Assembly: GCF_021531055.1 (NCBI RefSeq) | Contig: NZ_JADYTL010000010.1 | Location: 1 to 64,000 of the forward strand | Reading direction: 5' to 3' | Length of the DNA: 64,000 bases | From: Collinsella tanakaei | Lineage (GTDB): Bacteria > Actinomycetota > Coriobacteriia > Coriobacteriales > Coriobacteriaceae | In this document: piece after piece, positions 44,729-61,576 of the stretch | How positions within the stretch are numbered: the stretch's first letter is position 1 | Layout: the number at the start of each line of letters is the position of its first letter | Translations under genes and position numbers: made by a program | Notes under the pieces: generated by a model | What the model was told of the DNA's origin: nothing | Databases searched by the model: none | Seen by the model: only the letters and a program-made list of their open reading frames with translations

Positions 44729-45805
44729 ATGGCTCTGTCAATCGGTATCGTCGGTCTGCCCAACGTGGGCAAGTCGACGCTGTTCACCGCGCTGACCAAG
44801 AAGGGCGGTCTGGCGGCCAACTACCCCTTCGCCACCATCGACCCCAACGTCGGCATCGTCGACGTACCCGATGACCGCCTGCAGAAGCTGGCCGACATCG
44901 TGCACCCCGGCCGCATCGTGCCGGCGACGGTCGAGTTCGTGGACATCGCCGGTCTTGTGAAGGGTGCCAACGAGGGCGAGGGCCTGGGCAACCAGTTCCT
45001 GGCCAACATCCGCGAGACCGACGCCATCTGCGAGGTCGTGCGCTACTTCACCGATCCCAACGTCATGCGCGAGGTCGGCCGCACCGGAGACTTCGTCGAT
45101 CCCGCGGGCGACGCCGACACCATCATGACCGAGCTGATCCTGGCCGACATCCAGACGCTCGAAAAGCAGCTGCCCAAGCTCGAGAAGGAGGCCAAGCGCG
45201 ACCACGACCTCATGTCCAAGCTCGAGATCGCCAAGCGCCTGGTCGGCTGGCTGAACGAGGGCAACCGCGCCGCGGCGCTCGACATGACCGACGAGGAGCG
45301 CGCCGCCGCCAAGGGCCTGTTCCTGCTCACCATGAAGCCGATCCTGTACGTGGCCAACGTCGACGAGGACATGCTCGGTGAGGAGCTCGAGCCCATCGAC
45401 GGCGTCACCCCGATCCCCATCTGCGCCAAGGTCGAGGCCGAGCTGTCCGAGCTCGACCCCGAGGAGGCCGCCGAGTACCTGGAGACGCTCGGTCTCGAGC
45501 GCCCGGGCTTGGAGGTGCTCGCGCAGGCGGCATACAAGCTGCTCGGCCTGCAGTCGTTCTTCACGGCGGGTGAGATGGAGGTCAAGGCGTGGACGGTCCG
45601 TCAGGGTGCCACGGCTCCTCAGGCCGCCGGCGTGATCCATACCGACTTCGAGCGCGGCTTCATCAAGGCCGAGGTCATTTCCTATGACGATTACATCGAG
45701 CTCGGCGGCGAGCAGGGCGCCAAGGCGGCCGGCAAACTGCGCATGGAGGGCAAGGAGTACGTCATGGCCGACGGCGACGTGGTCCACTTCCGCTTCAACG
45801 TCTAA
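44729..45805 (+). CDS. ychF: Redox-regulated ATPase YchF (Obg-like)
   Basis: The 358-residue P-loop protein of the Obg family prefers ATP and associates with ribosomes. It shows [20 protein letters not shown] (G1), [36 protein letters not shown] (G3), a coiled-coil insert and the C-terminal TGS domain ([20 protein letters not shown]). The NKxD specificity motif is replaced ([10 protein letters not shown]), as usual in YchF. Start 44729 has AGGAGAAAG upstream. Confidence 0.95.
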
Positions 45806-45848
45806 GGTGGGCGGAGTCGTCCGTCGCGCGCACAAAGGAGTATCACCT

Positions 45849-46247
45849 ATGTCATCTCTGTCCATGTTCAAATACGGGAAGAAGGCCGGCTATCTCGGCA
45901 TCGCGACCATCGTGCTCGCGCTCATCCCGGTCGTCATCGCGCTTGTGCTCGTCCCGGGGCTTCCCGACGAGGTGCCCATGCGCTTCGATGCCACCGGTGC
46001 GGTCACGCGCTACGGCAGCAAGTTCGAGATGCTGATCCCGGCGGCGATGTCGGTCGCGTTCGGGTTCGGCATCTACGTGCAGACGGCGCGCAAGGCCGCC
46101 GAGCACGCTAAGGACTCCATGACCATGGCCGTGGGTCTGGCCGAGCGTTTCCTGCGCAGCGGCGTCATCACGACCGCGGTGATCAACGTGGCCAACGCCT
46201 ACCTGCTGTATATGGTGCTGACGGGCACGAACCCACTCGTGTTCTAG
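45849..46247 (+). CDS. DUF1648-like small membrane protein
   Basis: The 132-residue protein has three spans. The segment VPGLPDEVPMRFDATGAVTR after the first span is the DUF1648 signature, as in SdpI-type immunity or sporulation-delay proteins. Only the DUF1648 unit is present. Function unknown. Start 45849 has AAAGGAG 8 bases upstream. It follows ychF by 43 bp, so the two may be co-transcribed up to the palindromic terminator at 46288. Confidence 0.72.
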   Translation: MSSLSMFKYGKKAGYLGIATIVLALIPVVIALVLVPGLPDEVPMRFDATGAVTRYGSKFEMLIPAAMSVAFGFGIYVQTARKAAEHAKDSMTMAVGLAERFLRSGVITTAVINVANAYLLYMVLTGTNPLVF

Positions 46248-46270
46248 CCGGGGCGGTCTACTCCGCCGCT

Positions 46271-46341
46271 GTGAAATCGGATGGCGTCAGGGGCCCGCGC
46301 ATGCGCGGGCCCCTGTGCAAAAACGTCTGATCTGATTTCGC
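46271..46341. terminator. Bidirectional terminator with 28-bp perfect palindrome
   Basis: 46288-46315 is a perfect 28-base palindrome (AGGGGCCCGCGC arm, ATGC centre side). It is nested inside GTGAAATC/GATTTC outer arms and ends with CGTCTGAT, linking it to the GTGAAA repeat family. It sits between convergent genes. Confidence 0.75.
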
Positions 46342-46351
46342 CGCCGGAACG

Positions 46352-47398
46352 TCAAGCTGTCGGCAGACGGTCGTAGTTGACGGGCTGGTAGAACAGCTCC
46401 TCGATGCGCGAAGGGTCGCCCGATTGCCCGCGCGCCCACATGGTCTTGGCGACGAGCGCCTCGGTGGTCATGTCGTCGCCCTTGAGGATGCCGGGATGTT
46501 CGGCATAGGCGCGACCGACCTCGTAGACGCCGAGGTCGAGGCCCTCCTCGGGCACCTGCGTGGTGATGACCATCGTGCGTCCGGAGTCCACCCAGTCAAA
46601 GATCGCCTGCTTGAAGGTGAGCGCGCCGGGCGTGGTCCGCTCGTAGTCGGGGATGCCGCCGATGCCGAACGTCTCGAGGATGACCGCGTCGTAGCGCGGC
46701 TTGAGCAGTTCGAAAACCTCCGGTTCGATACCCGGGGTGAGCTTGAGCACGAAGACGCGCTCGTCGAGGTTGTCGAAGAAACGCGGACCGTCGATCGAGG
46801 CCTTGGGAAGCATCACGCCGTGCGCACGGGCGAGCGCGTCGCCGCTGCGGATGATGCGGTCGTTGCGGATGTAAGCCAGCGACGGGTAGTTGACGCTCTT
46901 GAACGCGTTGAAGCTCATGGTGCGCTGCTTGCGGCCGCGCGTGCCGGCGATCACCGCCCCGTTGAACACGATGACCACGTCGTGGCTGCGATCGTCCACC
47001 GCATAGACGATGCTTTGGAACACGTTGAGCTTGGCATCGGTGAACGAATCTCCCATGGGCTTTTGCGAACCGGTGAGCACGATGGGCTTGGGGCTGCTCT
47101 GGATGAGGTAGGAGAGGGCGGCGGCGGTGTAGGCCATGGTGTCGGTGCCGTGGAGCACCACGAAGCCGTCGTATTCGTCGTACGCCTCGACGATGGCCCG
47201 TGCGATGCGCCGCCAGTCGCGCGGGCGCATGTTGGTGCTGTCGATGTTCATGAGCTGGCGCACGCCGATGTCGGCGAGATCCGCGATCTCGGGCACGGCG
47301 CAGGCGAGATCGTCGCCGGAAAGCGCAGGCGCCAAGCCGTGCACATCTTGAGCGGAGGCGATCGTGCCTCCGGTGGCCAGCAGCAAGATCCTCTTCAT
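46352..47398 (-). CDS. ansA: Type I L-asparaginase
   Basis: The 348-residue asparaginase converts L-asparagine to aspartate and ammonia. The first catalytic Thr is in ATGGTIASAQD near residue 10, the second in VVLHGTDTMAYTAAALSYL near residues 83-101, and VLTGSQKPMGDSFTDAKLN follows. There is no signal peptide, fitting the cytoplasmic type I enzyme. Start 47398 has GAGGGA 6 bases upstream. It is convergent with the DUF1648-like gene. Confidence 0.9.
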   Translation of the reverse strand: MKRILLLATGGTIASAQDVHGLAPALSGDDLACAVPEIADLADIGVRQLMNIDSTNMRPRDWRRIARAIVEAYDEYDGFVVLHGTDTMAYTAAALSYLIQSSPKPIVLTGSQKPMGDSFTDAKLNVFQSIVYAVDDRSHDVVIVFNGAVIAGTRGRKQRTMSFNAFKSVNYPSLAYIRNDRIIRSGDALARAHGVMLPKASIDGPRFFDNLDERVFVLKLTPGIEPEVFELLKPRYDAVILETFGIGGIPDYERTTPGALTFKQAIFDWVDSGRTMVITTQVPEEGLDLGVYEVGRAYAEHPGILKGDDMTTEALVAKTMWARGQSGDPSRIEELFYQPVNYDRLPTA

Positions 47399-47443
47399 CG
47401 TGCATCCCTCGTTCACTCGCGGATCGGTCCGCACCTATTGTGC

Positions 47444-47573
47444 GACAAGAAGGTGCCAGGTACAAACCTGTCGCAAACTTGTCGGCAGCGTTCCCGACAA
47501 GAAGGTGCCAGGTACAAACTTGTCGCAAACTTGCCGGCAACTCCCCAATTATCTCCTGGCCCCTTTTGGGACA
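47444..47573. repeat. Cluster of three palindromic repeats upstream of ansA
   Basis: Two direct copies of GACAAG-AAGGTGCCAGGTAC-CTTGTC (47444-47472 and 47496-47524) are followed by a reversed TGTCCCAAAA element (47541-47573). They lie in the divergent ansA-guaA intergenic region. Confidence 0.75.
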
Positions 47574-47656
47574 TGCACACCGCCGCCCCATGCGGATCGA
47601 CGACCCCATAAACCCGCCGATGCGGTGCAGTTTTTAGGAGGTGCGGCGTGAGCATG

Positions 47657-47700
47657 TATGATAGTGAGGTTCGAGTAGAGACGGTGCCCGGGGCACCGTC
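47657..47700 (+). promoter_or_regulatory. guaA promoter and leader hairpin
   Basis: A -10-like TATGAT at 47657-47662 would start RNA near 47669. The leader then forms a perfect 9-bp hairpin, GACGGTGCC/GGCACCGTC at 47680-47688 and 47692-47700, 29 bases before the guaA start. No purine riboswitch core was recognised. Confidence 0.4.
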
Positions 47701-47729
47701 CCTTCGCTTGCATGCAGAAAGGGAGCAGC

Positions 47730-49328
47730 ATGTCGCAGACTTCTTCCAGCAGCACGGGGAGCAAGGTCCTCGTCTTCGACTTCGGCGCGCAGTACGGCCA
47801 GCTCATCGCCCGTCGCGTGCGCGACCTGCACGTGTATTCCGAGATCGTCCCGTGCGATATCACGGCTGACGAGGTTCGCGCCATGAACCCCGCCGCGCTC
47901 ATCCTGTCCGGCGGTCCGGCCTCCGTATACGCCGAGGATGCACCCTCGATCGATCCCGAAGTGCTCAAGCTCGGCATCCCCGTGCTGGGCTTCTGCTACG
48001 GCCACCAGACCATGGCGGTGGCGCTCGGCGGCGAGGTCGCGCACTCCGAGATCGGCGAGTACGGCCCAGCGACGATCGAGCGCGATCGCGAGAGCGCGCT
48101 GTTCAACGCCACGCCGATCGAGCAGACCGTATGGATGAGCCATCGTGACGCCGTCTCCCGTGCGCCCGAGGGTTTCGTGGTGACGTCGTCCACCGAGGTG
48201 TGCCCCGTGGCGTCCATGGAGTGCCCCGAGCGCAAGCTCTACTCCACGCAGTTCCACCCCGAGGTGCGCCACACCGAGTACGGCCAGCAGATCCTGTCCA
48301 ACTTCCTGTTCGACATCTGCGGCATCGAGCCCACGTGGACCATGGACAACCTCGTCGAGTCCATGTGCGCGGACATCCGCGAGACCGTGGGCGAGGATCG
48401 CGTGATCCTGGCGCTGTCGGGCGGCGTGGACTCGAGCGTGGTCGCCGCGCTCGGCGCGCGTGCCATCGGTCGCCAGATGACCTGCGTGTTCATCAACCAC
48501 GGCCTGTTGCGCAAGGGCGAGCCCGAGCAGGTCGAGGAGGTCTTCACCAAGCAGTTCGACGTCGACTTCATCCACGTGCACGCCGAGGACCGCTATGCCG
48601 CCCTGCTCGACGGCGTGACCGAGCCGGAGGAGAAGCGCCGCATCATCGGCACGCAGTTCTGGAAGGAGTTCTTCGCCGTCGCCCAGCAGCTCGACGGCGT
48701 GAAGTACCTGGCCCAGGGCACGATCTATCCCGACATCATCGAGAGCGGCGCGCGCAAGACGGGTGGCAAGGCGTCGACCATCAAGAGCCACCACAACCTC
48801 ATCCCGTTTCCCGAGGGCGTGCACTTCGACCTTATCGAGCCGCTCGACCACTTCTTCAAGGACGAGGTGCGCGAGCTTGGCTTGGCACTCGGCCTGCCCG
48901 AGCACATCGTGTACCGCCAGCCGTTCCCCGGCCCCGGCCTTGCGATCCGCATCATCGGTTCGGTGAGCCCCGAGAAGCTCGAGATCCTGAAGAACGCCGA
49001 CGCGATCGTGCGCGAGGAGCTCGATGCCTACAACGCGCGCCTGTTCGAGGCGACCGGCGAGCGCAACTCCGAGCACAGCTGCTGGCAGTATTTCGCCGTG
49101 CTGCCCGACATCAAGAGCGTGGGCGTCATGGGCGACGAGCGCACCTACGCGCGTCCGGTCATCATCCGCGCCGTCGAGTCGAGCGACGCCATGACCGCCG
49201 ACTGGGCCAAGCTGCCCTACGAGGTGCTGGCGCGCATCTCGAGCCGCATCGTGGCCGAGGTCCCCGGCGTGAACCGCGTGGCCTATGACATCACCTCGAA
49301 GCCGCCCGCGACCATCGAGTGGGAGTAG
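47730..49328 (+). CDS. guaA: GMP synthase (glutamine-hydrolysing)
   Basis: The 532-residue enzyme aminates XMP to GMP. The class I glutamine amidotransferase domain has the nucleophile in GFCYGHQTMAVALGG near residue 89 and the His/Glu in QFHPEVRHTEYG. The ATP-pyrophosphatase domain has LALSGGVDSSVVAALGARAI, and the dimerisation domain ends in KPPATIEWE. Start 47730 (MSQTSS) has GGGAG 4 bases before it; an in-frame ATG 6 codons earlier is less well placed. Confidence 0.96.
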   Translation: MSQTSSSSTGSKVLVFDFGAQYGQLIARRVRDLHVYSEIVPCDITADEVRAMNPAALILSGGPASVYAEDAPSIDPEVLKLGIPVLGFCYGHQTMAVALGGEVAHSEIGEYGPATIERDRESALFNATPIEQTVWMSHRDAVSRAPEGFVVTSSTEVCPVASMECPERKLYSTQFHPEVRHTEYGQQILSNFLFDICGIEPTWTMDNLVESMCADIRETVGEDRVILALSGGVDSSVVAALGARAIGRQMTCVFINHGLLRKGEPEQVEEVFTKQFDVDFIHVHAEDRYAALLDGVTEPEEKRRIIGTQFWKEFFAVAQQLDGVKYLAQGTIYPDIIESGARKTGGKASTIKSHHNLIPFPEGVHFDLIEPLDHFFKDEVRELGLALGLPEHIVYRQPFPGPGLAIRIIGSVSPEKLEILKNADAIVREELDAYNARLFEATGERNSEHSCWQYFAVLPDIKSVGVMGDERTYARPVIIRAVESSDAMTADWAKLPYEVLARISSRIVAEVPGVNRVAYDITSKPPATIEWE

Positions 49329-49334
49329 AAAATC

Positions 49335-49403
49335 AGCAGTTATGGGGGTATTAATCGTCAAATCTGCTAAAAATACCCCGATAAACGAGATATTTGCTAT
49401 ACT
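49335..49403 (+). promoter_or_regulatory. Interleaved inverted repeats and extended -10 before the first DUF4143 ATPase
   Basis: AGCAG (49335-49339) pairs with CTGCT (49364-49368), and GGGGTATT (49345-49352) pairs with AATACCCC (49372-49379), in an interleaved order. An extended -10, TGCTATACT, follows at 49395-49403, 28 bases before the start codon. Confidence 0.5.
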
Positions 49404-49430
49404 GGCTCCAGTCGAGAGATTGGGGCCAGT

Positions 49431-50699
49431 ATGCGTTTGTTCGAGCGCGAGGACTACCTCGAGAAGATCCGCGGGTTCTACCACGACGACGGCGTGATCA
49501 AGGTCCTCACCGGGGTCCGCCGGTGCGGCAAGTCGTGCCTCATGCAGACCATCGCCGGGGAGCTCAAGGCCACGGGGGTGCGGGAGGACCACATCATCTA
49601 CCTTGACCTCGACCGGTACGGCTTCCGCTCGGTGAAGACGCCGGACCAGCTCGAGGCGCTGATCGAGCCCGCGCTCAAGATTGACGGCATGAAGTACCTC
49701 TTCATCGATGAGATCCAGAACGTCGAGGGGTTCGAGGAGGTGGTGAACGAGTTCCGCGCCGAGGGCGGATTCTCCATCTTCATCACCGGCTCGAACTCCT
49801 ACCTGCTCTCCGGCGAGCTCGCCACCAAGCTGACGGGGCGCTACGTCGAGTTCGAGGTGCAGACGCTCAGCTTCAAGGAGTATCGCGAGATGAAGCGCTT
49901 CCTCGGGCAGGCGGTCGACTCCAACCCTGTGGCCGAGCTCGACCGCTACATCCTCGAGGGCGGCTTCCCCAAGGCGCTCGACTACCCCAAGATGGCGGAC
50001 AAGCGCGCCTACGTGAGCTCCGTCATCAAGGAGATTTTCGAGAAGGATATCCGCAGGCGCGTGAAGGTGAAGAACGTCTCGGTCTTCAACCAGGTGCGCG
50101 ACTACGTCATCAACAACTTCGGTGCGACGACCTCGCTGACGAACATCCAGTCCGACCTCGAACGGCAGGGCGTCCGCATCAAGCGAGAGACGCTCAACCG
50201 CTACCTTCAGATACTCGAGGATGCCAAGATCATCAGCAAGTGCGCACGCTTCGACATGAAGTCGCGCAAGTCGCTCAAGGGCGAGCAGAAGTACTACCTC
50301 GCCGACCTGAGCTTCTACTTCGCGCTCAACACGGACAACCGCATCAACTACGGGCCCGTGCTGGAGAACATCGTCTATTGCTACGCGAGGAGCCTGGGCT
50401 ACGAGGTGAGCGTGGGTCGCATCGGCAAGCTCGAGTGCGACTTCGTCATGCGCTCGCCCGAGATGGAGTACGCCTACGTGCAGGTGGCGATGACCATCAT
50501 GAACGACCTGAAGACCGAGGACCGCGAGTACCGCCCGCTCGAGCAGATACGGGACAGCTGGCCCAAGTTCGTCATCACGCGCGGCGACCCGATACAGCAC
50601 CGCGGCGGCATCGTGCACGAGAACGTGACGGAGCTGATCGGGGAGGGGCGGACGTTCGGGTTGGAGCAAGTGAGTGTCTCGCCGGGAGCGGACTGCTAG
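49431..50699 (+). CDS. AAA_14/DUF4143 ATPase (first copy)
   Basis: The 422-residue protein has an N-terminal AAA domain with Walker A GVRRCGKS (28-35), Walker B YLFIDEIQ (89-96) and sensor-like ITGSNSYLLS, then a winged-helix stretch (TSLTNIQSDLERQGVRI) and a C-terminal DUF4143 nuclease-like fold (LECDFVMRSPEMEYAYVQVA resembles the D-x-K pattern of PD-(D/E)XK domains). The biological role of the family is not established. Promoter-proximal inverted repeats suggest tight regulation. It is one of three family members here. Confidence 0.85.
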   Translation: MRLFEREDYLEKIRGFYHDDGVIKVLTGVRRCGKSCLMQTIAGELKATGVREDHIIYLDLDRYGFRSVKTPDQLEALIEPALKIDGMKYLFIDEIQNVEGFEEVVNEFRAEGGFSIFITGSNSYLLSGELATKLTGRYVEFEVQTLSFKEYREMKRFLGQAVDSNPVAELDRYILEGGFPKALDYPKMADKRAYVSSVIKEIFEKDIRRRVKVKNVSVFNQVRDYVINNFGATTSLTNIQSDLERQGVRIKRETLNRYLQILEDAKIISKCARFDMKSRKSLKGEQKYYLADLSFYFALNTDNRINYGPVLENIVYCYARSLGYEVSVGRIGKLECDFVMRSPEMEYAYVQVAMTIMNDLKTEDREYRPLEQIRDSWPKFVITRGDPIQHRGGIVHENVTELIGEGRTFGLEQVSVSPGADC

Positions 50700-50823
50700 T
50701 AAGTTGCTCTTACCTGCGTCACTCTTATGTCTATTTCCGCGCGCTCCGTGTGGCTCCCTGGCTGCTATCGTTCTTGCTGTCCATGCTGCGTTGCCTTTCG
50801 CGTTGTCGGGCGGCCGACATGAA

Positions 50824-50861
50824 GGCAGTCCGCAAACCTTCTTGAAGGTTTGCGGACTGCC
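50824..50861. terminator. Perfect 17-bp hairpin between convergent genes
   Basis: GGCAGTCCGCAAACCTT at 50824-50840 pairs perfectly with 50845-50861 around a 4-base loop. No T-run follows on the plus strand. It marks the boundary between the first DUF4143 gene and the STAND gene. The 124 bases before it hold nothing recognisable. Confidence 0.65.
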
Positions 50862-50895
50862 ACAAGTTCAAGACGAATTTGTCGTTGTAGTAGCT

Positions 50896-53800
50896 TTACC
50901 TAATTGCTCCTTCGTCCTCATCGGTGCAGGTAGAGTATTCATCTAGCAGCTCTTTGAGAAATCCTGCAGGCTCATATATTTCTTCCGGCATCGGATATTC
51001 ATTGGACATGTGGCACGAATGGTAATTACCATCTTCATCAATCCAGATTAGCCATGATAGCTCAGACCACGCTTCGGTCTTCGAGAGTCGTTCCTCTGCA
51101 AGCCGGTTGCCGCCTCTCTGGAGAGTTGCGTACCAAACAGGATGCAAGTCGCGAGCGCACAGGGCTTCGAAGAGTAGGTTCTTGTTAGCAAGCAATGCTT
51201 GATAGTGCTGCCTGTACGGCTCGCCATATTCCACGTCCTCGAATATGGTGTCGCCGTCAGAATTGAAATAGCGCAATCCGTCGGTGTGTGCCACGTCGCA
51301 TAGGTCCATCGCGAGCTTCGAGGGAAATCGATACCAGCAGTCTCCAATATCAGTCAGGTTGTCGGCACCGCTTCCTGATAGCGGAGAAGCCACGACATGG
51401 GCATCGGCGATCTTGTCGTGCTCGTGTCCCTCGTCGTATTCGCTGATCCATGGTGCCGACATGAATTCGACCGGTGAAATATAGGTGGCCTCAATGTTGA
51501 TGCTGGTGGAAAACGCGGAAGCATGGTCGTAGCCATCTATCGATGCCGTTCTATTCTCTGCAAGTTTTGCCAGATTGGCAGAATCCATGGCGCCGCAGTA
51601 CGCCCAGCAGCAGGCTTGCTTGCCGCAAATGCCCCAATCGCTAGCATATAGCGCGACGGGCATCACGTCATCAGAGATAGAAATGCTGACGTTGGGCTTG
51701 TATCTGAGAAGGGCGATGAGGACATCAGCGCTCCCGGAGCCAATCCAATCGCTGAGCTTTTGTTCGGTGCAAATTGAATCGCCGTCATCGCACGAGAAAG
51801 AGGCCGGGAAGGATGGGGTGATGCCCGCTCTCTCAGCGGAAAGGCGGTTCACGGTTGCCTCGAATAGCGGGCTCCGGTAGCTCAGTAAGTCGTTGTAGTC
51901 GGACGCAAGCTCGTAGGCATTTTGGTCGGGTCCATTTTGCCACTTGCTCGCAAATACGGGCACTCTGTCTGCCATGAAACCGCAAATTTCATTCCTCGCG
52001 CACCATACGTATTTTTCTGCAACGGTCATGATCGTGCTCTGCAAGCCGTGGTCGGCACTGCCGAAAGAGCCCGATATCCTACGATCGATACCGCCCAGGC
52101 GATACCCATCCTCTCCGACCGGTCCAACGAATACATCCGGATCATATCCATGGTCAACGAGGTACTGATAAGCCGCGGCAATGACCCAGCCTTCAAACTC
52201 CGGCGGCTCAATGTCTATCATTTCGGCGGAATTCTCTACGATACGCTGAATATCATCCGCGTTGTGGTCGTTGCTTGTACGATGGCGAGAAATACCAAAC
52301 GCCATCTCCAGCTTGTCAACGAGTACGTAGCGCGCAAGATCATAATGAATGGTCTGGAATCCTTCCATCCTGCTCGCATTAGCGGCATCCACATAGATGG
52401 GAAGTGCGCCCGCTGCGGCATCAACGTCAAACGGCGGACGACAGCATTTTGCCGCGCCGGGATCTATGGCACCGTCCACACAACACTTCTCGACGATCAT
52501 CCTTCCATAATGTCGTATGGACGCATCTCTGTTGCCCGGCTTGTCTGGTGCACTGAAAACCGAGGCGATGGCGATTTTGGCGAAGCGCTTTTCGGTCGCG
52601 TCATCAACCAGTCCCTGACATATTACTTCCCCTGCAATGGCAAACAGATCCTCGCGAATCTGCGGGTCGTTGCATTCGCTGAAATGGTCGAAGAGCTTCA
52701 CGTACTCATCTGGGCGATACATGGCCCACGTTACGAGCTCGCTTCTGCAATGTCGTCTCCTCAGGTTACTGATCGTTGCAAGGCACCAGGCAAGCAGTAG
52801 TGGCATTTGGTTCCACATGTCGTCGCCGTGCAAGCGAGGTAGACGCCTTGCGCCACCTCGTTCGTAGTACATGGATAGGCTGTAGTTGTCGTACAACTTG
52901 ATAGGTATCGACCAGACCTCATCACGCTCAACCGAAGTCCGAAATGCCCTCATGTACTCGTCTAAAAGAGTAGGCCCAAGCGGATGTCCCTGTACGTCCG
53001 CAACCTGGACAACAATCCCATTGACAATATCGCGAAGCGAATCACTGCTCTTGGCCATTTCGTCAAGGGCCCATTGGCGAAACTTTCCCGCAGCACTCTT
53101 CTCCGCATCTGCAAGTGCATCAATGGTGAGTTGGCGCACTCTCGCCGTGCCAAGAGATCCGATAAGCTCATTGCTCTCTAAGGGCAGGATGCCACGTTTC
53201 TCGATGAGCCGTATCGCGTACATGTAGGCGACGTCGCCATGATGAAGGAGCGCGTTGGCCACCGTAGCTTCTTCCGTCTCTATGAGCACGACGGCCATGA
53301 AGTAATCCCACAGGTGACGCGATCCAGGCTGGTACATGACAATTGGTGGGGAAACGCTCGTTGGTCCTGCTTGTTGGGAAGTGGAGAGTATTCCATATCC
53401 CTCGAGAAAGTCGAGCATTCTGTCAGCGTATTCGCGCTGAATGCCGGCTTTTTCGATAACGTCGCTGATTGCTGACCGGTTCCTCTTGCTGTCGTCTTCC
53501 AAAAACGCTATTGCAAGCTCAGAGAGTGCGGATCTGACCGGCTTCTGATACAGTCCGACAGTTTTACCGGTGCGAGCGGCGTATTCTTCATCAAGTCTGT
53601 CGACCTCAGCGTTGACCAGAGCAGTTAGGCAGGTTGATACCTCCTTATCTATCCGTCTCCCGCAGTAAGCGGTGCAGAACATGCGAAGTTCCATGGGTGT
53701 ACGGAGCGTCCATCTGTAGTGTTTGTTGCTGACAATATCGATTGAGTAGCGCTCGATGTAGCGGTCAAAAAGCTCGTGAGCGGGCACGTCGCCTTCGTCA

Positions 53801-55290
53801 TCGACATGATGAGTGCATTCCCAGGCATCATCGGTGAGGCTGCGCTCAATACCGTAAGGACGAGACGAGTAGGCAAACCTAATCCTAGGGTACTCGCATG
53901 AAATGGCATCGCCCTGCCTGACCAAAGAGGTCCAGCTTGATGCCGGCGGCCTTTCGTCGAGACCATCGACAAACACAGCGACCTTGGCTCGTACAGTAAC
54001 GCAGCCTTCGCGCGCGTCGCGCATTGCGGCGGACGAGCTCAATGCCTGCCACAGTTCGGCTTCATCCCAGTCAGATAGACCGAGAGCATTGCATATAATT
54101 TCCCTCCACCCATCGTGCTCGTTGATCTCTCCAGCTCGAATAAAGATAGGCAGGTGCTTACCATCCTTCAGGAATCCAACTGCTGCACTGGCGAAGCCAC
54201 AGGTCTTGCCGGTTCCCTGCTCACCAATAACGAGGCAGTGCGGATAGCAAAACGCTTCACGTACCGCCCTGCAGATATCGTACTCGCTCGGCAGCTCTTT
54301 GAACCTGTCTATCAGTTTAATAAGCTCGTCTGCATGTCCTGTTAGCTTGTACTTCCTCTTCAGGTCCTGCATGTCGAACTCAAAGCGCTCGATTGCCCCA
54401 TAGTCGACGATAATGTTGTCGATTTCGACCAATCCATATGGCTCTGTCACGAGCATGCGTCTCCATAAACTCAGATGGTCAGCATACGCGGTGACAGCAT
54501 CGCAGCACTTTGTAGCAGAATCCTTCAATGTGTCAGATAGCTCGTTTTCGACGTTTACCAAAGAGTTGGCCACATAGGCAAGGTCGTGGCATACATTAAG
54601 GCAGATGTCTATCTCTTTGATAAGGGCGGCTCTACTCTCGATTGTTCCGAAGAAGTTGCCGAGAAAGATTGCCATATCACCGTCGCCTACGACTTCTGGC
54701 ACATAACGGTCTTTCAAGCCCTCTACTGCACGTCGAAGTGCAAGGTGTATCCCTTCTGAATTGATTGCAGTCTTCTCAAACCAAAAGCGCCAGCACCCCT
54801 CGTTTTCGAGCTTCTGCAAGAGGGTCAGTACGAAGTGCTCGTTCCATAGAACGAGCTCAAGGTTTGGATAAGCCTGCTCTATCGAATCTTTGAATTTCTC
54901 CCAAGCACTTTCCTCGCCGGGGGAGATTGTCTCGTTCTTGCTTTTTCTGAGCGAGGTAAGATTATGCGGTATACAAACGATGTATTTCGTTAAGTTTGGC
55001 CGCACCTCTCTGGCCTTGTCTATTGATTTCTTGATCTGTCCATACTGGGAAGGCGTTATTGACTTCCTGAACCACTTTGCTTGGACACCAATGAACTCAT
55101 CGCTGCTCGTATTGTGCCAGCATGCCTCAATTCCGCCGTCTCCGCCATCCCCACGTATGTCACGATAAGTCCAGCTGGAATCGAAGTTCATCGTATGCGT
55201 ACCCCATGTCTCGAAGAGCTGGCAGCACAGCTCCTCGAATGCCTCCTTATCTCCCAGACCCTGGTTGTTGAACTTCTCAAATATGCTCAC
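50896..55290 (-). CDS. Avs-like STAND NTPase with N-terminal PD-(D/E)XK nuclease
   Basis: The 1464-residue protein is the standout gene. Residues about 15-160 form a restriction-endonuclease-like domain: FEELCCQLFE, then GDGGDGGIEACWHN (Asp51, Glu55) and GVQAKW (Gln70, Lys72), the Mrr/Cap4-type D-E-QxK pattern. A STAND/NACHT-like NTPase follows, with Walker A GEQGTGKT (356-363) and Walker B VAVFVDGLDE (437-446). Beyond about residue 650 lie some 800 residues without an obvious domain, in the position of a target-sensing region. Nuclease-STAND-sensor order is that of Avs antiphage proteins, which oligomerise and cut DNA after recognising a phage protein. Base composition is visibly AT-richer than flanking genes, which suggests transfer. 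Avs membership is inferred from architecture. Confidence 0.72.
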   Translation of the reverse strand: MSIFEKFNNQGLGDKEAFEELCCQLFETWGTHTMNFDSSWTYRDIRGDGGDGGIEACWHNTSSDEFIGVQAKWFRKSITPSQYGQIKKSIDKAREVRPNLTKYIVCIPHNLTSLRKSKNETISPGEESAWEKFKDSIEQAYPNLELVLWNEHFVLTLLQKLENEGCWRFWFEKTAINSEGIHLALRRAVEGLKDRYVPEVVGDGDMAIFLGNFFGTIESRAALIKEIDICLNVCHDLAYVANSLVNVENELSDTLKDSATKCCDAVTAYADHLSLWRRMLVTEPYGLVEIDNIIVDYGAIERFEFDMQDLKRKYKLTGHADELIKLIDRFKELPSEYDICRAVREAFCYPHCLVIGEQGTGKTCGFASAAVGFLKDGKHLPIFIRAGEINEHDGWREIICNALGLSDWDEAELWQALSSSAAMRDAREGCVTVRAKVAVFVDGLDERPPASSWTSLVRQGDAISCEYPRIRFAYSSRPYGIERSLTDDAWECTHHVDDEGDVPAHELFDRYIERYSIDIVSNKHYRWTLRTPMELRMFCTAYCGRRIDKEVSTCLTALVNAEVDRLDEEYAARTGKTVGLYQKPVRSALSELAIAFLEDDSKRNRSAISDVIEKAGIQREYADRMLDFLEGYGILSTSQQAGPTSVSPPIVMYQPGSRHLWDYFMAVVLIETEEATVANALLHHGDVAYMYAIRLIEKRGILPLESNELIGSLGTARVRQLTIDALADAEKSAAGKFRQWALDEMAKSSDSLRDIVNGIVVQVADVQGHPLGPTLLDEYMRAFRTSVERDEVWSIPIKLYDNYSLSMYYERGGARRLPRLHGDDMWNQMPLLLAWCLATISNLRRRHCRSELVTWAMYRPDEYVKLFDHFSECNDPQIREDLFAIAGEVICQGLVDDATEKRFAKIAIASVFSAPDKPGNRDASIRHYGRMIVEKCCVDGAIDPGAAKCCRPPFDVDAAAGALPIYVDAANASRMEGFQTIHYDLARYVLVDKLEMAFGISRHRTSNDHNADDIQRIVENSAEMIDIEPPEFEGWVIAAAYQYLVDHGYDPDVFVGPVGEDGYRLGGIDRRISGSFGSADHGLQSTIMTVAEKYVWCARNEICGFMADRVPVFASKWQNGPDQNAYELASDYNDLLSYRSPLFEATVNRLSAERAGITPSFPASFSCDDGDSICTEQKLSDWIGSGSADVLIALLRYKPNVSISISDDVMPVALYASDWGICGKQACCWAYCGAMDSANLAKLAENRTASIDGYDHASAFSTSINIEATYISPVEFMSAPWISEYDEGHEHDKIADAHVVASPLSGSGADNLTDIGDCWYRFPSKLAMDLCDVAHTDGLRYFNSDGDTIFEDVEYGEPYRQHYQALLANKNLLFEALCARDLHPVWYATLQRGGNRLAEERLSKTEAWSELSWLIWIDEDGNYHSCHMSNEYPMPEEIYEPAGFLKELLDEYSTCTDEDEGAIR

Positions 55291-55340
55291 TCAACGGCTC
55301 CTCAACCAATCGCAAGGTGGTTCCTATCGTTGGATAAAAA

Positions 55341-55550
55341 CTAGATGCTCTGTGTTTTGGAAAGCTTTTCGATCAGACATAGCTTAAAGAGCGAGGTGAA
55401 GTTCAAACCGCCAAGCCTAGCATCTTCTTTGGCTGAGTCGCGCATCGTGCGTGGCAAGCGAAGTGTCACAGTCACTAATTCTGAGTCTGTGAGGTAAGAC
55501 TGCATCTCCGGGGTCGAAGCGCCAGATTCTATGAGCTCCTTGTAGTTCAT
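55341..55550 (-). CDS. Small ribbon-helix-helix protein upstream of the STAND gene
   Basis: The 69-residue protein has a C-terminal ribbon-helix-helix unit: strand ELVTVTLRLPRTMRD, helix AKEDARLGGL and helix NFTSLFKLCLIEKLS. Such Arc/CopG-type proteins are DNA-binding repressors or antitoxins. Start 55550 (MNYKEL) has AAGGA 5 bases upstream; the frame continues to 55598 but with a weaker start. It ends 50 bases before the STAND gene on the same strand and shares its AT-richer composition, so the two probably form an operon in which this protein represses expression. Confidence 0.68.
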   Translation of the reverse strand: MNYKELIESGASTPEMQSYLTDSELVTVTLRLPRTMRDSAKEDARLGGLNFTSLFKLCLIEKLSKTQSI

Positions 55551-55579
55551 ATGATTCCTTACTACGTAAATCGTGTGCA

Positions 55580-55590
55580 AATTCAGAATT
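55580..55590 (-). promoter_or_regulatory. Candidate ribbon-helix-helix operator
   Basis: AATTC-T-GAATT is a perfect 11-base palindrome 30 bases upstream of the small gene, within its likely promoter. TAGAAT further upstream (55609-55614 region on the minus strand) may be a -10. Short palindromes of this kind are usual for such repressors. Confidence 0.35.
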
Positions 55591-55883
55591 AAGTACATTC
55601 TAGCGGGCTACAGTGGCAAGAGGATTAGCCGCCGGCTCTCAAGCAAGAATCACGAAACGGGGCCCCGTGCGCGTTGAAAAGCAGTGCTGAACGTATTTGC
55701 GGTCGTCTGCTATTGACGAACTGATAAAGCCGTTAACGGCGCGATTCGTCATCGAGCTCGCGGTGCCGCAGACATCTGGGGCGCTATCGTTCTCGATGTC
55801 TAGAGCTGTCCGAAGGTGTTGCCGCATTCCTTGGCATCGTCAAGTATCTAGTTTGTGTACTTTTCGATAGTCCTCTAGGCCCG

Positions 55884-56169
55884 TCATCGGTACGGACCCT
55901 CTTCCAGCGGCGTCACATCTAGGTAACGCCTCGATCTCCACTCACTCTTGGCGACGTGTCTGAGCCGGACGGCGACAAGCATCAGGGCTGATCTCCCGTC
56001 GGGGAAGACGCCTCCGCCCTTGGTCCGCGGCGGATTCCCGGTTCGGTCTCTCGGAAGCGTTGCTTGCACCGATTCTCCTCCAGCGGGCGGTGTGGAGCTT
56101 CGTGCAGGTTAGGGCTTCGGCATGGCCCTCGCGGACGACCTTGACCTCCTCCACGATGTCCCTCTTGTT
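55884..56169 (-). pseudogene. IS256-family (Mutator) transposase remnant
   Basis: Two overlapping frames together read as the C-terminal third of an IS256-type transposase: KVVREGHAEALTCTKLHTAR, WRRIGASNASERPNRE, and after a frameshift near 56037, TKGGGVFPDGRSALMLVAVR and LRHVAKSEWRSRRYLDVTPL. The usual IRTTN-x-ERLNRE motif has decayed to IGASNASERPNRE. No catalytic DDE part or terminal repeats remain. The rest of the 55599-56309 gap shows no recognisable gene. Confidence 0.75.
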
Positions 56170-56309
56170 CCGACAGCTCGAATCATGCCGGGTGGGTTGT
56201 GCCCCGTCCTGTCTAGACGTTATTCCGCTGTCAAAGTGCTGAAGTGTTTCGCGTAACCCTCGGCGTTCTCGATGCGTTAATTTGCGTGATTCCCAGGGCC
56301 CGTTTTCTT

Positions 56310-56351
56310 CTATTGAGAAAAAATGCCGCATACGGCAAAATTGCTCAATAG
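56310..56351 (+). promoter_or_regulatory. Nested inverted repeat before the second DUF4143 ATPase
   Basis: CTATTGAG (56310-56317) pairs with CTCAATAG (56344-56351); inside, TGCCG-CATA-CGGCA (56324-56337) forms a second palindrome with 6 bases on each side. A TGC-TCAATA extended -10-like sequence overlaps the right arm, 30 bases before the start codon. Confidence 0.5.
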
Positions 56352-56381
56352 TAGTCGATCGGGAATCAAGGCGAGGCACAC

Positions 56382-57674
56382 ATGGAAATCAAGCGGGATC
56401 GATATCTCAACAGGCTCATCGACCGCATGCACAACGGCATGGTCAAGGTGGTTACGGGTATCCGCCGCTGCGGGAAGACGTATCTGCTCTTCAACCTCTT
56501 CAGCGACTATCTGCGCTCGGAGGGCGTCGACGACGGGCACATCATCGAGGTCGCGCTCGATGTCGAGGAGAACGCCGCTCTCCGCAACCCCGACGCGCTG
56601 TCCGCCCATCTGCGCTCGAAGATCGCGAACGGGCGCGAGCAGTACTATGTCTTTCTCGACGAGGTCCAGTATGCCATTTCGCGCGAGGAGCTCAAGAGCC
56701 CGGACGTCCCGCCCCGGCTCTACGGCGTGCTCAACGGGCTTCTGCGCATGGGCAACGTCGACGTGTACGTGACAGGGAGCAACTCGAAGCTCCTCTCGCA
56801 TGACGTCATGACGGAGTTCCGGGGGCGCGGGGACGAGGTACGCGTGCGACCGCTGTCCTTCTTCGAGTTCATGCAGGGCTTCGACGGCGACCGCTACCAG
56901 GGTTGGGCGGAGTACACGGTGTACGGCGGCATGCCGCTTGCGCTCTCGATGCATACAGATGAGCAGAAGGCACGCTACCTCGAACGTCTCTTCGAGGAAA
57001 CGTATCTAAAGGATGTTGTGGAGAGGCACGAGATCAGGAAGCGTGGTGAGCTTGACGACCTGGTGAACGTGCTCGCCTCAGGCATCGGGACGCTCACGAA
57101 TCCGAGCAAGCTCGAGAACACCTTCCGAAGCGTGCTCCACTCCAAGATCTCCTCGAACACGATTTCCAGCTATATAGGCTACCTCGAGGACGCCTTCGTC
57201 ATCGAGGAGGCGCGGCGCTACGACGTGAAGGGGAGGGGCTACATCGGCAGCCCCCTGAAATACTACTTCGAGGACGTGGGGCTCCGAAACGCGCGGCTCG
57301 GCTTTCGGCAGGTCGAGGAGAGCCACATCATGGAGAACGTGGTCTACAACGAGCTCAGGGCGCGCGGGTACTCGGTGGACGTTGGCGTGGTCGAGAAGCG
57401 CGTCCGCGAGGAGGGCAGGGACGTTCGCAAGCAGCTTGAGGTCGACTTCGTCGCCAACAGGGGTTCCGACCGCGTCTATATTCAGTCGGCGCTGGAGATG
57501 AGGACGCCCGAGAAGGCGGCCCAGGAGAAGGCATCCCTGCTCGGCATCAGCGACAGCTTCAGGAAGGTTGTGCTCGTGCGCGACGTGGTGAAGCCCCTGC
57601 GCGATGAGCGGGGTGTGGTCACGATGAGCGTGTTCGACTTCCTGCTCGATGAGAACAGCCTCGCCGGGATATAG
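56382..57674 (+). CDS. AAA_14/DUF4143 ATPase (second copy)
   Basis: The 430-residue protein shows Walker A GIRRCGKT (26-33), Walker B VFLDEVQ (90-96), sensor VTGSNSKLLS, the conserved YGGMPLAL turn, and a C-terminal DUF4143 region with KQLEVDFVANRGSDRVYIQS. It is clearly related to but well diverged from the copy at 49431. No ribosome site is strong; CGAGGC lies near. The role is unknown. An IS256 remnant lies directly upstream and an IS3 element downstream. Confidence 0.85.
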   Translation: MEIKRDRYLNRLIDRMHNGMVKVVTGIRRCGKTYLLFNLFSDYLRSEGVDDGHIIEVALDVEENAALRNPDALSAHLRSKIANGREQYYVFLDEVQYAISREELKSPDVPPRLYGVLNGLLRMGNVDVYVTGSNSKLLSHDVMTEFRGRGDEVRVRPLSFFEFMQGFDGDRYQGWAEYTVYGGMPLALSMHTDEQKARYLERLFEETYLKDVVERHEIRKRGELDDLVNVLASGIGTLTNPSKLENTFRSVLHSKISSNTISSYIGYLEDAFVIEEARRYDVKGRGYIGSPLKYYFEDVGLRNARLGFRQVEESHIMENVVYNELRARGYSVDVGVVEKRVREEGRDVRKQLEVDFVANRGSDRVYIQSALEMRTPEKAAQEKASLLGISDSFRKVVLVRDVVKPLRDERGVVTMSVFDFLLDENSLAGI

Positions 57675-57938
57675 GAGAAGAAGCGACTACGTTGAGTTCA
57701 TTTTTGAGTTCATTCGGGCGTCGAAGATTCGGCTGATTTTGGTTAATGGGGAGACGGCGGTACACCACGTAGACGAGAGACCATGGAAATGCACGATTTG
57801 ATTACTGAGTGGGAATAGGAGAATATGGATAACACAGGGAAAGAAACAGCAGGTAGATAGCCCGTTTTCATCTCGACGCGCGGCGCGGTGATGACAAAAC
57901 GATGCCGCGCGCCCGATTGCGTCTCATATGTATCAGGG
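57675..57938. other. Non-coding stretch after the second DUF4143 gene
   Basis: It holds a direct repeat TTGAGTTCAT (twice, near 57691-57715), an imperfect GCGCGGC stem near 57878-57920, and no convincing gene. It leads into the terminator at 57939. Confidence 0.4.
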
Positions 57939-57977: not shown

Positions 57978-58000
57978 GCGCGACCAAGGAGGCTGGATCG

Positions 58001-58033
58001 ATGGGGCGTATGGAGAGAGCGCGCCGGGCGGCA
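58001..58033 (+). pseudogene. 5' stub of a gene cut by the IS3 element
   Basis: ATG 58001 with AAGGAGG 8 bases upstream begins MGRMERARRAA and runs straight into the IS left end, stopping inside it at 58061. The remainder is not found beyond the right end, so the original gene was lost. Confidence 0.5.
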
Positions 58034-58116
58034 GTGAATCTGAATCTCCCCCGTTTCCGTTGACACATCGAGTTCCGTTTGGGCATGATGCCGTAAACGG
58101 GGAAAGGGGGCATGGG

Positions 58117-58404
58117 ATGGGACATCCGTCGCCCAAGCATTCGGCAGAGTTCAAGCAGCAGGCGGTGAGGCTGTACAGGGAGCGGGGCGGTACCTACGCG
58201 GAGACCGCCCGCGAGCTCGGCGTCGACCCGGGGAGCCTGTCGGACTGGGTCAGGAGGGCCGACGCCGCGCAGGCGCCGGCAGGGGACAACCCCTTCCAGA
58301 TGGCGGAGGACCTCCGCAGGCTGAGGCGCGAGAACGAACGGCTGAAGAGGGAGAACGAGATACTTTTGAAAGCGGGCGCCTTCTTCGCCGGCAGGCAGCT
58401 GTAG
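58117..58404 (+). CDS. IS3-family transposase OrfA
   Basis: The 95-residue protein has the OrfA helix-turn-helix (SAEFKQQAVRLYRERGGTYA, ELGVDPGSLSDWVRR) and a C-terminal leucine-zipper-like helix (EDLRRLRRENERLKRENEIL). It binds the IS ends. ATG 58117 follows GGAAAGGGGG. orfB starts in the -1 frame, as usual for IS3 elements that make an OrfAB fusion by programmed frameshift. Confidence 0.9.
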   Translation: MGHPSPKHSAEFKQQAVRLYRERGGTYAETARELGVDPGSLSDWVRRADAAQAPAGDNPFQMAEDLRRLRRENERLKRENEILLKAGAFFAGRQL

Positions 58405-58439
58405 GCGCCCAGGCGGAGAGGGCGAAGCTCGCTTTCATA

Positions 58440-59314
58440 TTGCTCAACGAAGGAGCCCGGAGCGTGTCCGAGATGCGCCGCGCGCTCCATGTCACCCGCC
58501 AGGGCCACCACGCGTGGAGGAAGAGGCGGCCGAGCGCGCACGACCTGCGCGACGCCGAGCTGGCCGCGGCGATCTCCGAGATATACACCGCCAGCCGCGG
58601 CATCTACGGCGTTCCCAAGGTCTTCGCCGAGCTCAGGCGCTCCGGCGAGCGCACGTCGCGCAAGCGCGTGGCGCGCATCATGCGCGAGAGCGGCTGGGCC
58701 GGCACCATCAGGGGCGGCGCCAGGCGCCCGAGGAGCGCGGCCAAACCGGCCGCCCCGCAGGCCAACACCGCGCCCGACCTGGTGCGCCGGGATTCTGCGC
58801 GGACGGCCCGAACCGCGCGTGGTTCGCCGACATCACCTATGTGAGGACCCATCAGGGCTGGATCTACCTGGCGGTCGTCATGGACATATGGTCGCGCAGG
58901 ATCGTCGGCTGGTCCATGGCGCCGCGCATGGCCGCCGAACTCGCCGACGACGCGCTCAGGATGGCGATCGCGAGGCGGCGCCCGCCGAGGGGCTGCATCC
59001 ACCATTCGGACCACGGCTCCCAGTACACGTCGCTCCTGCTCGGGAAGACGATGCGCGCCGCGGGCATCAGGCCCTCCATGGGCTCCATATCGTCGCCGTG
59101 GGACAACGCCGCGATGGAGTCGCTCATGGGGCTCATCAAGGCCGAGTGCGTGCACGCCCGCACGTTCGAGACGCGCGATCAGGCGGCGCTGGAGATCTTC
59201 GAGTACATCGAGTGCCTCTACAACCGCAAGCGGATCCACTCGGCGCTGGGGTACCTCAGCCCCGAGGAGTTCGAGGCGAGGCACACGGAGGATGCCGCCC
59301 CGAGGGCAGCGTAG
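58440..59314 (+). pseudogene. IS3-family transposase OrfB, frameshifted
   Basis: The reading frame begins with LLNEGARSVSEMRRALHVTR and an HTH_21-like region (YTASRGIYGVPKVFAELRRS), then shifts at about 58793. One T appears to be missing in GGGATTCTGCG; restoring it gives DLVRRDFCADGPNRAWFADI. The second part carries the DDE catalytic core: DITYV, IHHSDHGSQYTS and the Glu of LMGLIKAE, then NRKRIHSALGYLSPEEFE. As written the protein cannot be made in one frame, so this copy is probably inactive. Confidence 0.85.
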
Positions 59315-59345
59315 GGGTGTAAACGGAATCGGGGTAGATTCAGAT

Positions 59346-60482
59346 TCACCGCTCCGGGTCGATGCGGATCTCGCGCAGCCCCGCCAGCCACTCGTACGAG
59401 AGCCTGCGCATGTTCGACTTCCTCGCCGGCCGCACCCGCAGCCCCGCCTCGCGCCGCCACACGGCCATCGACTGCTTGCCGTCCGGCGTGTCGTCGCACC
59501 AGATGAGCTCGTCGTGGAGGTAGGCGTCCTCGCCGGGCTCGTCGGCGTAGGTGAGCGCATCGGTTACCAGTGCCGCCGTCTCTGCAGGCGTCTTCCTGTT
59601 CGCCGAGAGCTCGCCGAAGATGGTGAGCCGCCGCTCACCTGGCTCCCAGCCGCAGCGCACGAAGCGCCAGGGATCCGGGAACCATCCCCAGTCCACGCCG
59701 CACCGCGTGCGCGAGAAGCCCCGGCACGCCGCGTCGGACAGGCGCACTGAGACGACGTTGTTGAACACCGAACCGCCCGTGCCCGTCACCTCGCCCAGGT
59801 ACTCGCTCCTCCACGCCCGCTCGTCGACGCTGCGCAGGTACTCCGCTTCCTCGATGAACGGAGTGCCCAGCCACTCCGGGTGGCTCTCGATCACGTCCAG
59901 ATACGAGCTCTGGCGAACGAGCGTGTCCGCTCGCCGCTCGCGCTCCAGTTCCTCGCGGTTCACCAAGTTCCAAAACGTTCGGGGAGGGTTGTAGCTGTAG
60001 AAGATCCAGAAGTCCTCGCCGCCGCGCCTGAGCGAGTTCAGGATGCTCCGCGCCGCGTCGATCCCGTCGAACTGGTCGAGCTCCTCGAACCACGTGACGG
60101 CGCAGTACCCGCGCGCGAACTTCACGCCCTTGAGCTTGAGCGGGTCGTCGGCGCCCCGGAACACGATTCTCTGCCCCGTCGGCAGGTACGTGAGCTCCAT
60201 CGGAGAGATGCGCGCGCGGAACCACGCGTCGAGCCCCAGCGCCGCGATCGCCCACGTCATCTGCGAGAACACGCTGTCGCGCAGCGTGTTCGAGAACCTG
60301 CGCACCACCACCGCGTTCGCCTCCGGGTGCGCCAGCAGGAGCAGCACGATGCAAACGCTGATGAAGCTCGACTTCGTGGACCCGCGCCCGCCGTGCAGCC
60401 AGTAGTGCGTGTGACCGTGGGCCATCACGTCGCCCAGCACGTCGTGGAAGCACGGGATGACGAGCGAGGACACGTCAACCAT
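59346..60482 (-). pseudogene. Phage terminase large subunit, C-terminus cut by IS3
   Basis: This PBSX-type terminase powers DNA packaging into proheads. The ATPase part shows WLHGGRGSTKSSFISVCI (Walker A, residues about 27-44), VTWFEELDQFDG (Walker B/catalytic Glu) and the coupling motif YSYNPPR; the nuclease part has CGVDWGWFPDPW. The frame ends in LREIRIDPER, then stops in the IS right end after 378 residues, about 40-60 short of the family, so the last nuclease segment is missing. Confidence 0.85.
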
Positions 60483-60897
60483 TCGAGCCGCCCTCGTCGA
60501 ATCCCGACAGCTTCTCCTGCACCGGTTGCGTCACCACGCCGAGCACGATCCTGGGCGCGGCGTCCACCTTCGCGTCGTCGCGCTGGCGCTCGGCCTTGCC
60601 GAACTCGTCGGGGTACTTGCGCTCGAGCAGCCACGCCGCCGCCGTCCAGTACTGGTTGCGCGCGAGCGCCGCCGAGCGGATCGTCGTGAGCAGCGTCCGC
60701 TTGAACGCCGACTCCTCCTTTTTTAGTCCCTCGCTTAACTCGCGCTGCAGCTTCGTCTTCGGCTCCCCGATCCAGCGGTAGAACGTTGATTCATGAATGC
60801 CCAGCGCGCAGATGATGTCGCCGTTCGAGAGCCCGTCCGCCTTGAGGCGGATCGCCTCGTCGACCATCTCCTGCGTCAGCTTCGCCCGCCTCGCCAT
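60475..60897 (-). CDS. Phage terminase small subunit-like HTH protein
   Basis: The 140-residue protein has an N-terminal helix-turn-helix (DGLSNGDIICALGIHESTFY) and a helical C-terminal part (KTLLTTIR-like region, YWTAAAWLLERKYPDEFG). It overlaps the large subunit start by 8 bases, the normal terminase order. It would recognise the phage packaging site. The large subunit being broken, it probably has no packaging role now. Confidence 0.8.
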   Translation of the reverse strand: MARRAKLTQEMVDEAIRLKADGLSNGDIICALGIHESTFYRWIGEPKTKLQRELSEGLKKEESAFKRTLLTTIRSAALARNQYWTAAAWLLERKYPDEFGKAERQRDDAKVDAAPRIVLGVVTQPVQEKLSGFDEGGSNG

Positions 60898-60963
60898 GCA
60901 ATCACCCCCGTGAAAGGTCGATAGATTCCCTCACGGTGGATTCTCGTGGCGCGTCACAAAGAG

Positions 60964-60983
60964 GGGCGCCCCTCCGGGCGCCC
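60964..60983 (-). terminator. Terminator after the flavin reductase gene
   Basis: Two GGGCGCCC octamers (60964-60971 and 60976-60983) pair around a 4-base loop. Read on the minus strand they are followed by TCTTTGTG, 32 bases beyond the flavin reductase stop. Confidence 0.55.
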
Positions 60984-61015
60984 GGACAAGCCCTCCGCCC
61001 GCTGCTGGGTGGAGC

Positions 61016-61576
61016 CTACATCAAGGCCTTCCCCGCGCTCCAGGCGCCGCCGACCTCCTCCCCGACGACCCGGTAGACGCGACGCGTCGAGTCGTACACG
61101 ATCGGACGCATCTGAGAGAAGTCGACGCGCCCCTCTCCGTCGAGCACCGCCTCGTCGACGCGGGTGTTGACGATCTCCCCAACGAAGCGCTTCTCGCCGG
61201 CCCAGTCCTCGACGGAAATCACGCGACACTCCATGGTGAGGGGGAACTCCTCGATGACTGGCGCGTCGACGAACTCGGAACGCGTGAAGGTGAGCCCCGA
61301 CCCCTCGGCCTTGTTGACCCTGCGCCCGGTGGCGATACCGAAGTAGTCCGCCTCGGCGACGTGCGCCGCGTCGGCGGGCGCAACCGTGAACGCCCCGCGC
61401 GCCAGGATGTTGTCGGTCGTCTTGTGGTCGCCGATGTTGATCGCCACCTGCGTGCGGGTGCACTCGCCGCCCCACGCGACGTTCATGGCGTTTGGCGTCC
61501 CGTCCTCTCCGTAGCTCGCGACGATGAAGACCGACTGGGGAAACAGCTCGCCCGCCACGCCGAGATTCTTTTTCAT
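61016..61576 (-). CDS. Flavin reductase family protein
   Basis: The 186-residue FMN-binding split-barrel protein has the family core FPQSVFIVASYGEDGTPNAM near residue 12, INIGDHKTTDNILARGAFTV in the second strand pair, and GIATGRRVNKAEGSGLTF. It would reduce or bind flavin with NAD(P)H. Start 61576 has GAGGAGGAGAGG upstream. It is divergent from an HxlR gene 155 bp away, a common regulator/oxidoreductase pair, so HxlR probably represses it. Confidence 0.88.
   Translation of the reverse strand: MKKNLGVAGELFPQSVFIVASYGEDGTPNAMNVAWGGECTRTQVAINIGDHKTTDNILARGAFTVAPADAAHVAEADYFGIATGRRVNKAEGSGLTFTRSEFVDAPVIEEFPLTMECRVISVEDWAGEKRFVGEIVNTRVDEAVLDGEGRVDFSQMRPIVYDSTRRVYRVVGEEVGGAWSAGKALM

Follow-up and report, generated by a model that had tools for sequence, protein, structure and literature searches.

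In the closest described systems, as reported in two papers, the large terminase subunit of phages is recognized by Avs1, Avs2 and Avs3 and the portal protein by Avs4, and a Klebsiella Avs2 also binds the protein Ksap1 (PMC12931631; PMC12724215). The same papers describe an N-terminal effector that is activated by ATP-dependent assembly of the NTPase, and nuclease effectors of Avs1–4 that cut both the phage and the host genome and kill the cell (PMC12931631; PMC12724215). Here, we examined a stretch of 64,000 nucleotides from Collinsella tanakaei (contig NZ_JADYTL010000010.1, positions 1 to 64,000; hereafter the window), which carries, at 50896–55290 on the minus strand, a gene for a protein with an Avs-like arrangement of domains. 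Our analysis indicates that this is very probably a deeply diverged Avs2-type antiphage protein, which would sense a phage protein, oligomerize and bring a nuclease into action.

The reading frame starts with a GTG at 55290, ends with a stop at 50896 and is open over 1,464 codons without a break. The start is credible, as the last base of a GAGGAG ribosome-binding site lies 7 bases ahead of the GTG and residue 1 lines up with residue 1 of three relatives in an alignment of four proteins. A chance frame is ruled out by the full-length relatives, 46–70% identical, found in three other genomes. These four proteins align from the first to the last residue with a mean column identity of 68%; D51, E55, Q70 and K72 of the nuclease are invariant among them, and the NTPase motifs, read in the translation as Walker A (GEQGTGKT, 356–363) and Walker B (VAVFVDGLDE, 437–446), are retained in all four. 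A first-pass annotation of the DNA had proposed exactly these catalytic residues and Walker positions, in a protein whose nuclease is followed by a STAND NTPase and some 800 further residues, and this layout is borne out by one intact frame. Its remark on an AT-richer composition also reflects a real shift relative to both flanks, the G+C content being 0.50–0.54 in the four 1-kilobase (kb) bins that lie fully within the gene, 0.63–0.66 over 44000–50000 and 0.66–0.69 over 58000–62000. Scans for promoters and terminators stayed at chance level. A small operon partner is unsupported, since both upstream open reading frames (ORFs; 55341–55598 and 55942–56379) are without a Pfam or PHROG family match. 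No SIR2 domain family was found in a first probe of the C. tanakaei genome.

The gene and its parts are as follows; percentages are those of profile–profile alignment (hhalign) by region with five Avs2-type proteins, except in the last line, where 13 such proteins were used.

50896–55290, minus strand: avs2-like gene, 1,464 amino acids, GTG start, single open frame
54691–55290, minus strand: PD-(D/E)XK-type nuclease effector, residues 1–200, with D51, E55, Q70 and K72; 99.7% over 1–205; structure model compared with Avs4 8dgf_B
54271–54690, minus strand: helical linker, residues 201–340, from the helices of the model; 1.9% over 206–340
53731–54270, minus strand: STAND NTPase core, residues 341–520, with Walker A 356–363 and Walker B 437–446 (DGLDE); 96.7%
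53311–53730, minus strand: remainder of the STAND module, residues 521–660; 89.1%
52423–53310, minus strand: first, Avs2-like part of the C-terminal sensor, residues 661–956, matched by PADLOC PDLC02164; 98.4% over 640–960, aligned at 685–957
50899–52422, minus strand: diverged Avs2 C-terminal sensor, residues 957–1464, with the stretch EKYVWCARNEICGFMADR; 97.6%, aligned at 1032–1395

Homology to Avs2 extends through effector, NTPase and sensor. In PADLOC, all matches of the protein at E up to 1 were to Avs2, with six models in total and a best E of 3.2e-55, and hhalign with the five Avs2-type proteins was collinear across residues 10–1126 (100%). A search of solved structures with the single sequence gave no match; the four-protein profile found Avs2 in the PDB (9o4e, E 4e-12, residues 434–956). 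The linker is poorly conserved beyond close relatives (6–15% identity to L009 and to the 13 Avs2 comparators introduced below). In the broad sense of PADLOC, the protein thus belongs to Avs2 by its best profile, its effector, its NTPase and its sensor homology.

The C-terminal ~800 residues had been described in the first-pass annotation as without a recognized domain, and a hidden Markov model search of this region does not support that description. The fragment 650–1464 matched PADLOC Avs2 (PDLC02164, 1.5e-15), with its best stretch at residues 747–956. The fragments from ~650 to the end of all four proteins likewise match PADLOC Avs2, with best stretches that stop at ~960; further matching stretches entered this search as counts without positions. 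The remaining tail, residues 957–1464, matches by profile–profile comparison. For this comparison, the four proteins and a plasmid protein of Anabaena sp. 90 were set against 13 Avs2-type proteins, namely L011–L014, from 15 places in the phylum search, and nine plasmid proteins (L010, L033–L037, L039, L041 and L042); 12 plasmid loci had been fetched, of which L038, where the match falls on no annotated frame, and L040, which is split into two frames, were dropped as comparators. The five-sequence tail then aligned at 97.6%, with residues 1032–1395 on Avs2 columns 1111–1459. The same C-terminal place in Avs2 was found without the Anabaena protein (95.4%), with the Anabaena protein alone (96.5%) and with the window protein alone (74.4%), and residues 957–1200 reached 94.3% against the whole Avs2 profile. 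Controls stayed at or below 0.7% for 60 column shuffles and at or below 0.2% for the reversed tail. The clearest common stretch is EKYVWCARNEICGFMADR, which stands opposite GKKYQWxAxxEL in Avs2 and whose KY pair is present in all 18 alignment rows. A new, unrelated sensor domain is rejected in view of this match and its shuffled and reversed controls: as far as sequence comparison can tell, the tail and the Avs2 C-terminus are homologous.

Full-length relatives were detected in three genomes beyond that of C. tanakaei (G162, 70%; G061, 47%; G206, 46%) among 297 genomes searched, its own included, and two further genomes matched over ~63 nuclease residues only. With the four-protein alignment as query, eight of the 296 genomes of the class matched, three of them in full length (C. 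tanakaei, G162 and G206). Whole-genome profile searches covered the Actinomycetota. Across all bacterial genomes, a single scan for six exact peptides returned two loci, in Olsenella profusa F0195 and Tractidigestivibacter montrealensis. The first of these is a relative of the same order, which upholds the proposal of an Avs-like protein in Coriobacteriia. WP_015081596.1, the plasmid protein of Anabaena sp. 90, carries the annotation 'hypothetical'; it is collinear with the window protein over 4–206 and 352–1382 and falls in the same tree group, but it comes from another phylum, is plasmid-borne and shares 24–33% identity by segment. A tree of 18 proteins is divided by one branch (100/100) into the window protein, L007, L003, L008 and the Anabaena protein on the one hand and the 13 Avs2 comparators on the other. 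As the root was placed at the midpoint, these five may form a clade or a sister group; long branches (L014, L013, L041 and L009) and unlike letter composition in several rows, among them that of the window protein, weaken any more detailed placement. The window protein is 22–31% identical to the 13 comparators in the nuclease and 15–22% in the NTPase. Ten of them carry a counterpart of D51, with one shifted by a residue and two gapped, and the QxK of the window protein recurs in 12, the thirteenth lacking that stretch.

Several results weigh against an assignment to Avs2. With five comparators only, hhalign of the tail gave 26.6%, which is not significant, so the outcome for the tail varies with how deep the set of comparators is. 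Against the Avs2 C-terminal profile piece alone, the match splits, residues ~1316–1395 reaching 97.9% and ~1032–1119 just 0.2%. In the tail, the window protein and the 13 comparators share only 13–16% identity, and target specificity is therefore not transferable from Avs2. Walker B reads DGLDE in all five group members, where an asparagine replaces the second aspartate (DxxN) in 13/13 comparators. The NCBIfam Avs2 model (NF041813) scored 43.6 bits (E 1e-11) against a cut-off of 1000, and a Pfam scan of the protein gave no family at E up to 1. The structure model of the C-terminal part, built from a three-sequence alignment, is poor (predicted local distance difference test score, pLDDT, 40.9) and did not enter the fold search. 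Finally, neither tblastn against phages nor three scans of viral contigs found a relative. The NF041813 cut-off is strict in itself: 13 of 396 genomes of the phylum match this model and none passes, including two that match nearly end to end with 594 and 608 bits. We therefore file the protein as a diverged Avs2-type protein and not as an NF041813 equivalog.

The same divergence bears on a second reading, in which the protein would represent a separate Avs type with the layout of Avs2 and a sensor for a phage protein other than the large terminase, the portal or Ksap1. We regard this as a less likely reading that deserves attention; it overlaps with the Avs2 assignment and differs from it in the trigger. 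The separate group in the tree, the low tail identity and the DGLDE motif (none of the 13 others has it) would fit such a type, and more than one trigger is known for Avs2 (PMC12931631; PMC12724215), while the homology of the tail to the Avs2 tail argues against it. A different phage target is possible, since the tail is so diverged. It is only tentatively that we would speak of a separate subtype, found in Coriobacteriales and on at least one cyanobacterial plasmid, with a phage protein new as an Avs trigger and DGLDE in place of DxxN in its NTPase. The 'new Avs type' of the first-pass annotation does not hold as stated, for the protein is of Avs2 type end to end; what stands is a diverged group of its own, and it is better described as a deeply diverged Avs2 group.

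Structure comparison of the N-terminal part raises the question of whether the protein could instead be an Avs4-like portal sensor. The model of residues 1–645 is middling (pLDDT 57.9), and its residues 4–167 resemble residues 6–169 of the Avs4 nuclease (8dgf_B) with a Z score of 10.6 and a root-mean-square deviation of 3.6 over 134 aligned residues, the closest among the rows for the nuclease region, in agreement with the nuclease fold anticipated for this part. The nuclease model also matches EcoT38I, MspJI, EndoMS, Can2 and Cap4, more weakly and among unrelated rows; as RNA-polymerase subunits (Z 8.9 and 8.8) outrank EcoT38I (8.3) and MspJI (7.9), only the Avs4 row is clear. Foldseek also ranked 8dgf first (E 1.1e-4), but with a TM-score of 0.18, and the NCBIfam Avs4 model matched 59 nuclease residues only (61–119; 14.3 bits, E 0.0043). 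In contrast, no PADLOC Avs4 model matched at E up to 1, the profile matches beyond the nuclease go to Avs2, and the NTPase and sensor gave no Avs4 match. An Avs4-like sensor is thus very improbable. The absence of Avs2 9o4e from the N-terminal structure-comparison rows shown bears on neither side. Helical-bundle rows over 217–349 (Z up to 10.9) were set aside as common arrangements, not kin.

Turning to its surroundings, the avs2-like gene sits in a variable slot that adjoins guaA and is bordered by two AAA_14-DUF4143 genes with 28% mutual identity; positions 47712–57817 of the window take in the slot and both of these genes.

49431–50699, plus strand: AAA_14-DUF4143 ATPase, left border of the slot
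56382–57674, plus strand: AAA_14-DUF4143 ATPase, right border of the slot

A guaA query matched 39 of 39 genomes, the own one included, with some matches partial, and six guaA loci (L058–L063) were fetched. Both flanks are present in G020 (89% over 47714–50704 and 92% over 56259–57817), where the slot holds 2.65 kb of other DNA as compared with 5.55 kb in the window. Two proteins of this cargo are unmatched in PADLOC and Pfam, and the second AAA_14 gene is followed by a type I restriction system. The slot of G008 contains one gene of GmrSD type and another that matches BnzB, and a type I system there separates guaA from the first AAA_14 gene; G021 carries GajA and GajB within ~6.5 kb of guaA. 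The single protein tested in G016 had no match. Defence genes thus occur in or near the slot at three of the six related loci (G020, G008, G021, G016, G023 and G019), the first four of which were tested for their cargo.

Two of the three relatives examined for their neighbours also stand among defence genes. In Olsenella profusa, a GmrSD-type gene lies 20 bases upstream of the relative. In G061, the neighbours are a ZorD/DpdE-like helicase, a cytosine methylase and a protein that matches MzaB (L050, 3791–10185), perhaps parts of an Mza-like or mixed system. The Tractidigestivibacter relative stands at a contig end, and its two scanned neighbours are one transposase and one unmatched protein. 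The proposal of a defence locus is supported by this context, which also bears on the idea that the protein is a STAND regulator with no part in defence, or that its gene is silent and decaying. A limited literature search found no activity of a group member, and no paper that treats Collinsella, AVAST and defense systems together was found in the literature searched, the former in keeping with that idea. We consider it unlikely in view of the full frame, the intact motifs, the ribosome-binding site and the conservation in four genomes, and of the defence genes that stand next to two of the three relatives and, in related genomes, at the equivalent place. More AAA_14-DUF4143 genes occur nearby on the same contig (L047, 7987–9288 and 12952–14157). 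Within the slot, 55832–56239 consists of two abutting pieces of a sequence whose counterparts stand ~0.9 kb apart in G000:C8 and G016:C4; this is perhaps a decayed gene copy, and the ORFs tested there had no family match.

Of the insertion sequence (IS) and phage remnants that had been noted next to the gene, the phage part is confirmed by terS (60475–60897, minus strand) and a 3′-truncated terL (59346–60482, minus strand). The IS part is unconfirmed, since no transposase was found with Pfam and PHROGs among the ORFs scanned around the gene, which are part of the window ORFs. Compared with two further copies in the genome, to which it is 93% and 76% identical, the truncated terL is short of ~47 C-terminal residues, and its similarity to the C15 copy stops at 59349. 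The terminases of the C. tanakaei genome are of one family, with longer copies on C15 (425 amino acids) and C9 (451 amino acids), the truncated copy at a distance of 4 kb from the avs2-like gene, and a fourth match that is weak. Two elements of this genome, L048 and L049, each contain terL and a weak SPP1-portal match; L048 also has an NrS-1-type/DUF927 gene and L049 a VapE/primase gene.

Since the protein has all three modules, an Avs2-like way of working is the best reading. By analogy with the studied Avs proteins, the C-terminal region (~660–1464) would bind a conserved protein that the phage makes in the course of infection. By the precedent of the Avs2 proteins studied, this trigger is most likely the large terminase subunit, but its identity is the least certain part of the reading. 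Binding of the trigger would release the NTPase for ATP-dependent oligomerization, which in turn may gather the N-terminal PD-(D/E)XK nucleases so that DNA is cut. Infection would then be halted, presumably at the expense of the cell, as in the Avs systems described above.

This reading would extend Avs2-type immunity to a deep group that comprises Coriobacteriales and one cyanobacterial plasmid, a group that naming by the NCBI Avs2 cut-off would miss. A sensor with the layout of Avs2 at such low identity offers a useful test of the extent to which one sensor may be adapted to other phage proteins, and the slot beside guaA is a place to seek more defence genes in the genus. Compared with known systems, the window protein shares with Avs2 (AVAST type 2; PADLOC PDLC02161–02166, NF041813, PDB 9o4e) the order of nuclease, STAND module and sensor and is homologous to it in all three by profile comparison, but it differs in the DGLDE at Walker B, in a tail of 13–16% identity and in a score far under the NCBI cut-off. 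With Avs4 (PDB 8dgf), it has in common the nuclease fold of residues 4–167, whereas no Avs4 profile match goes past the 59-residue stretch of the nuclease.

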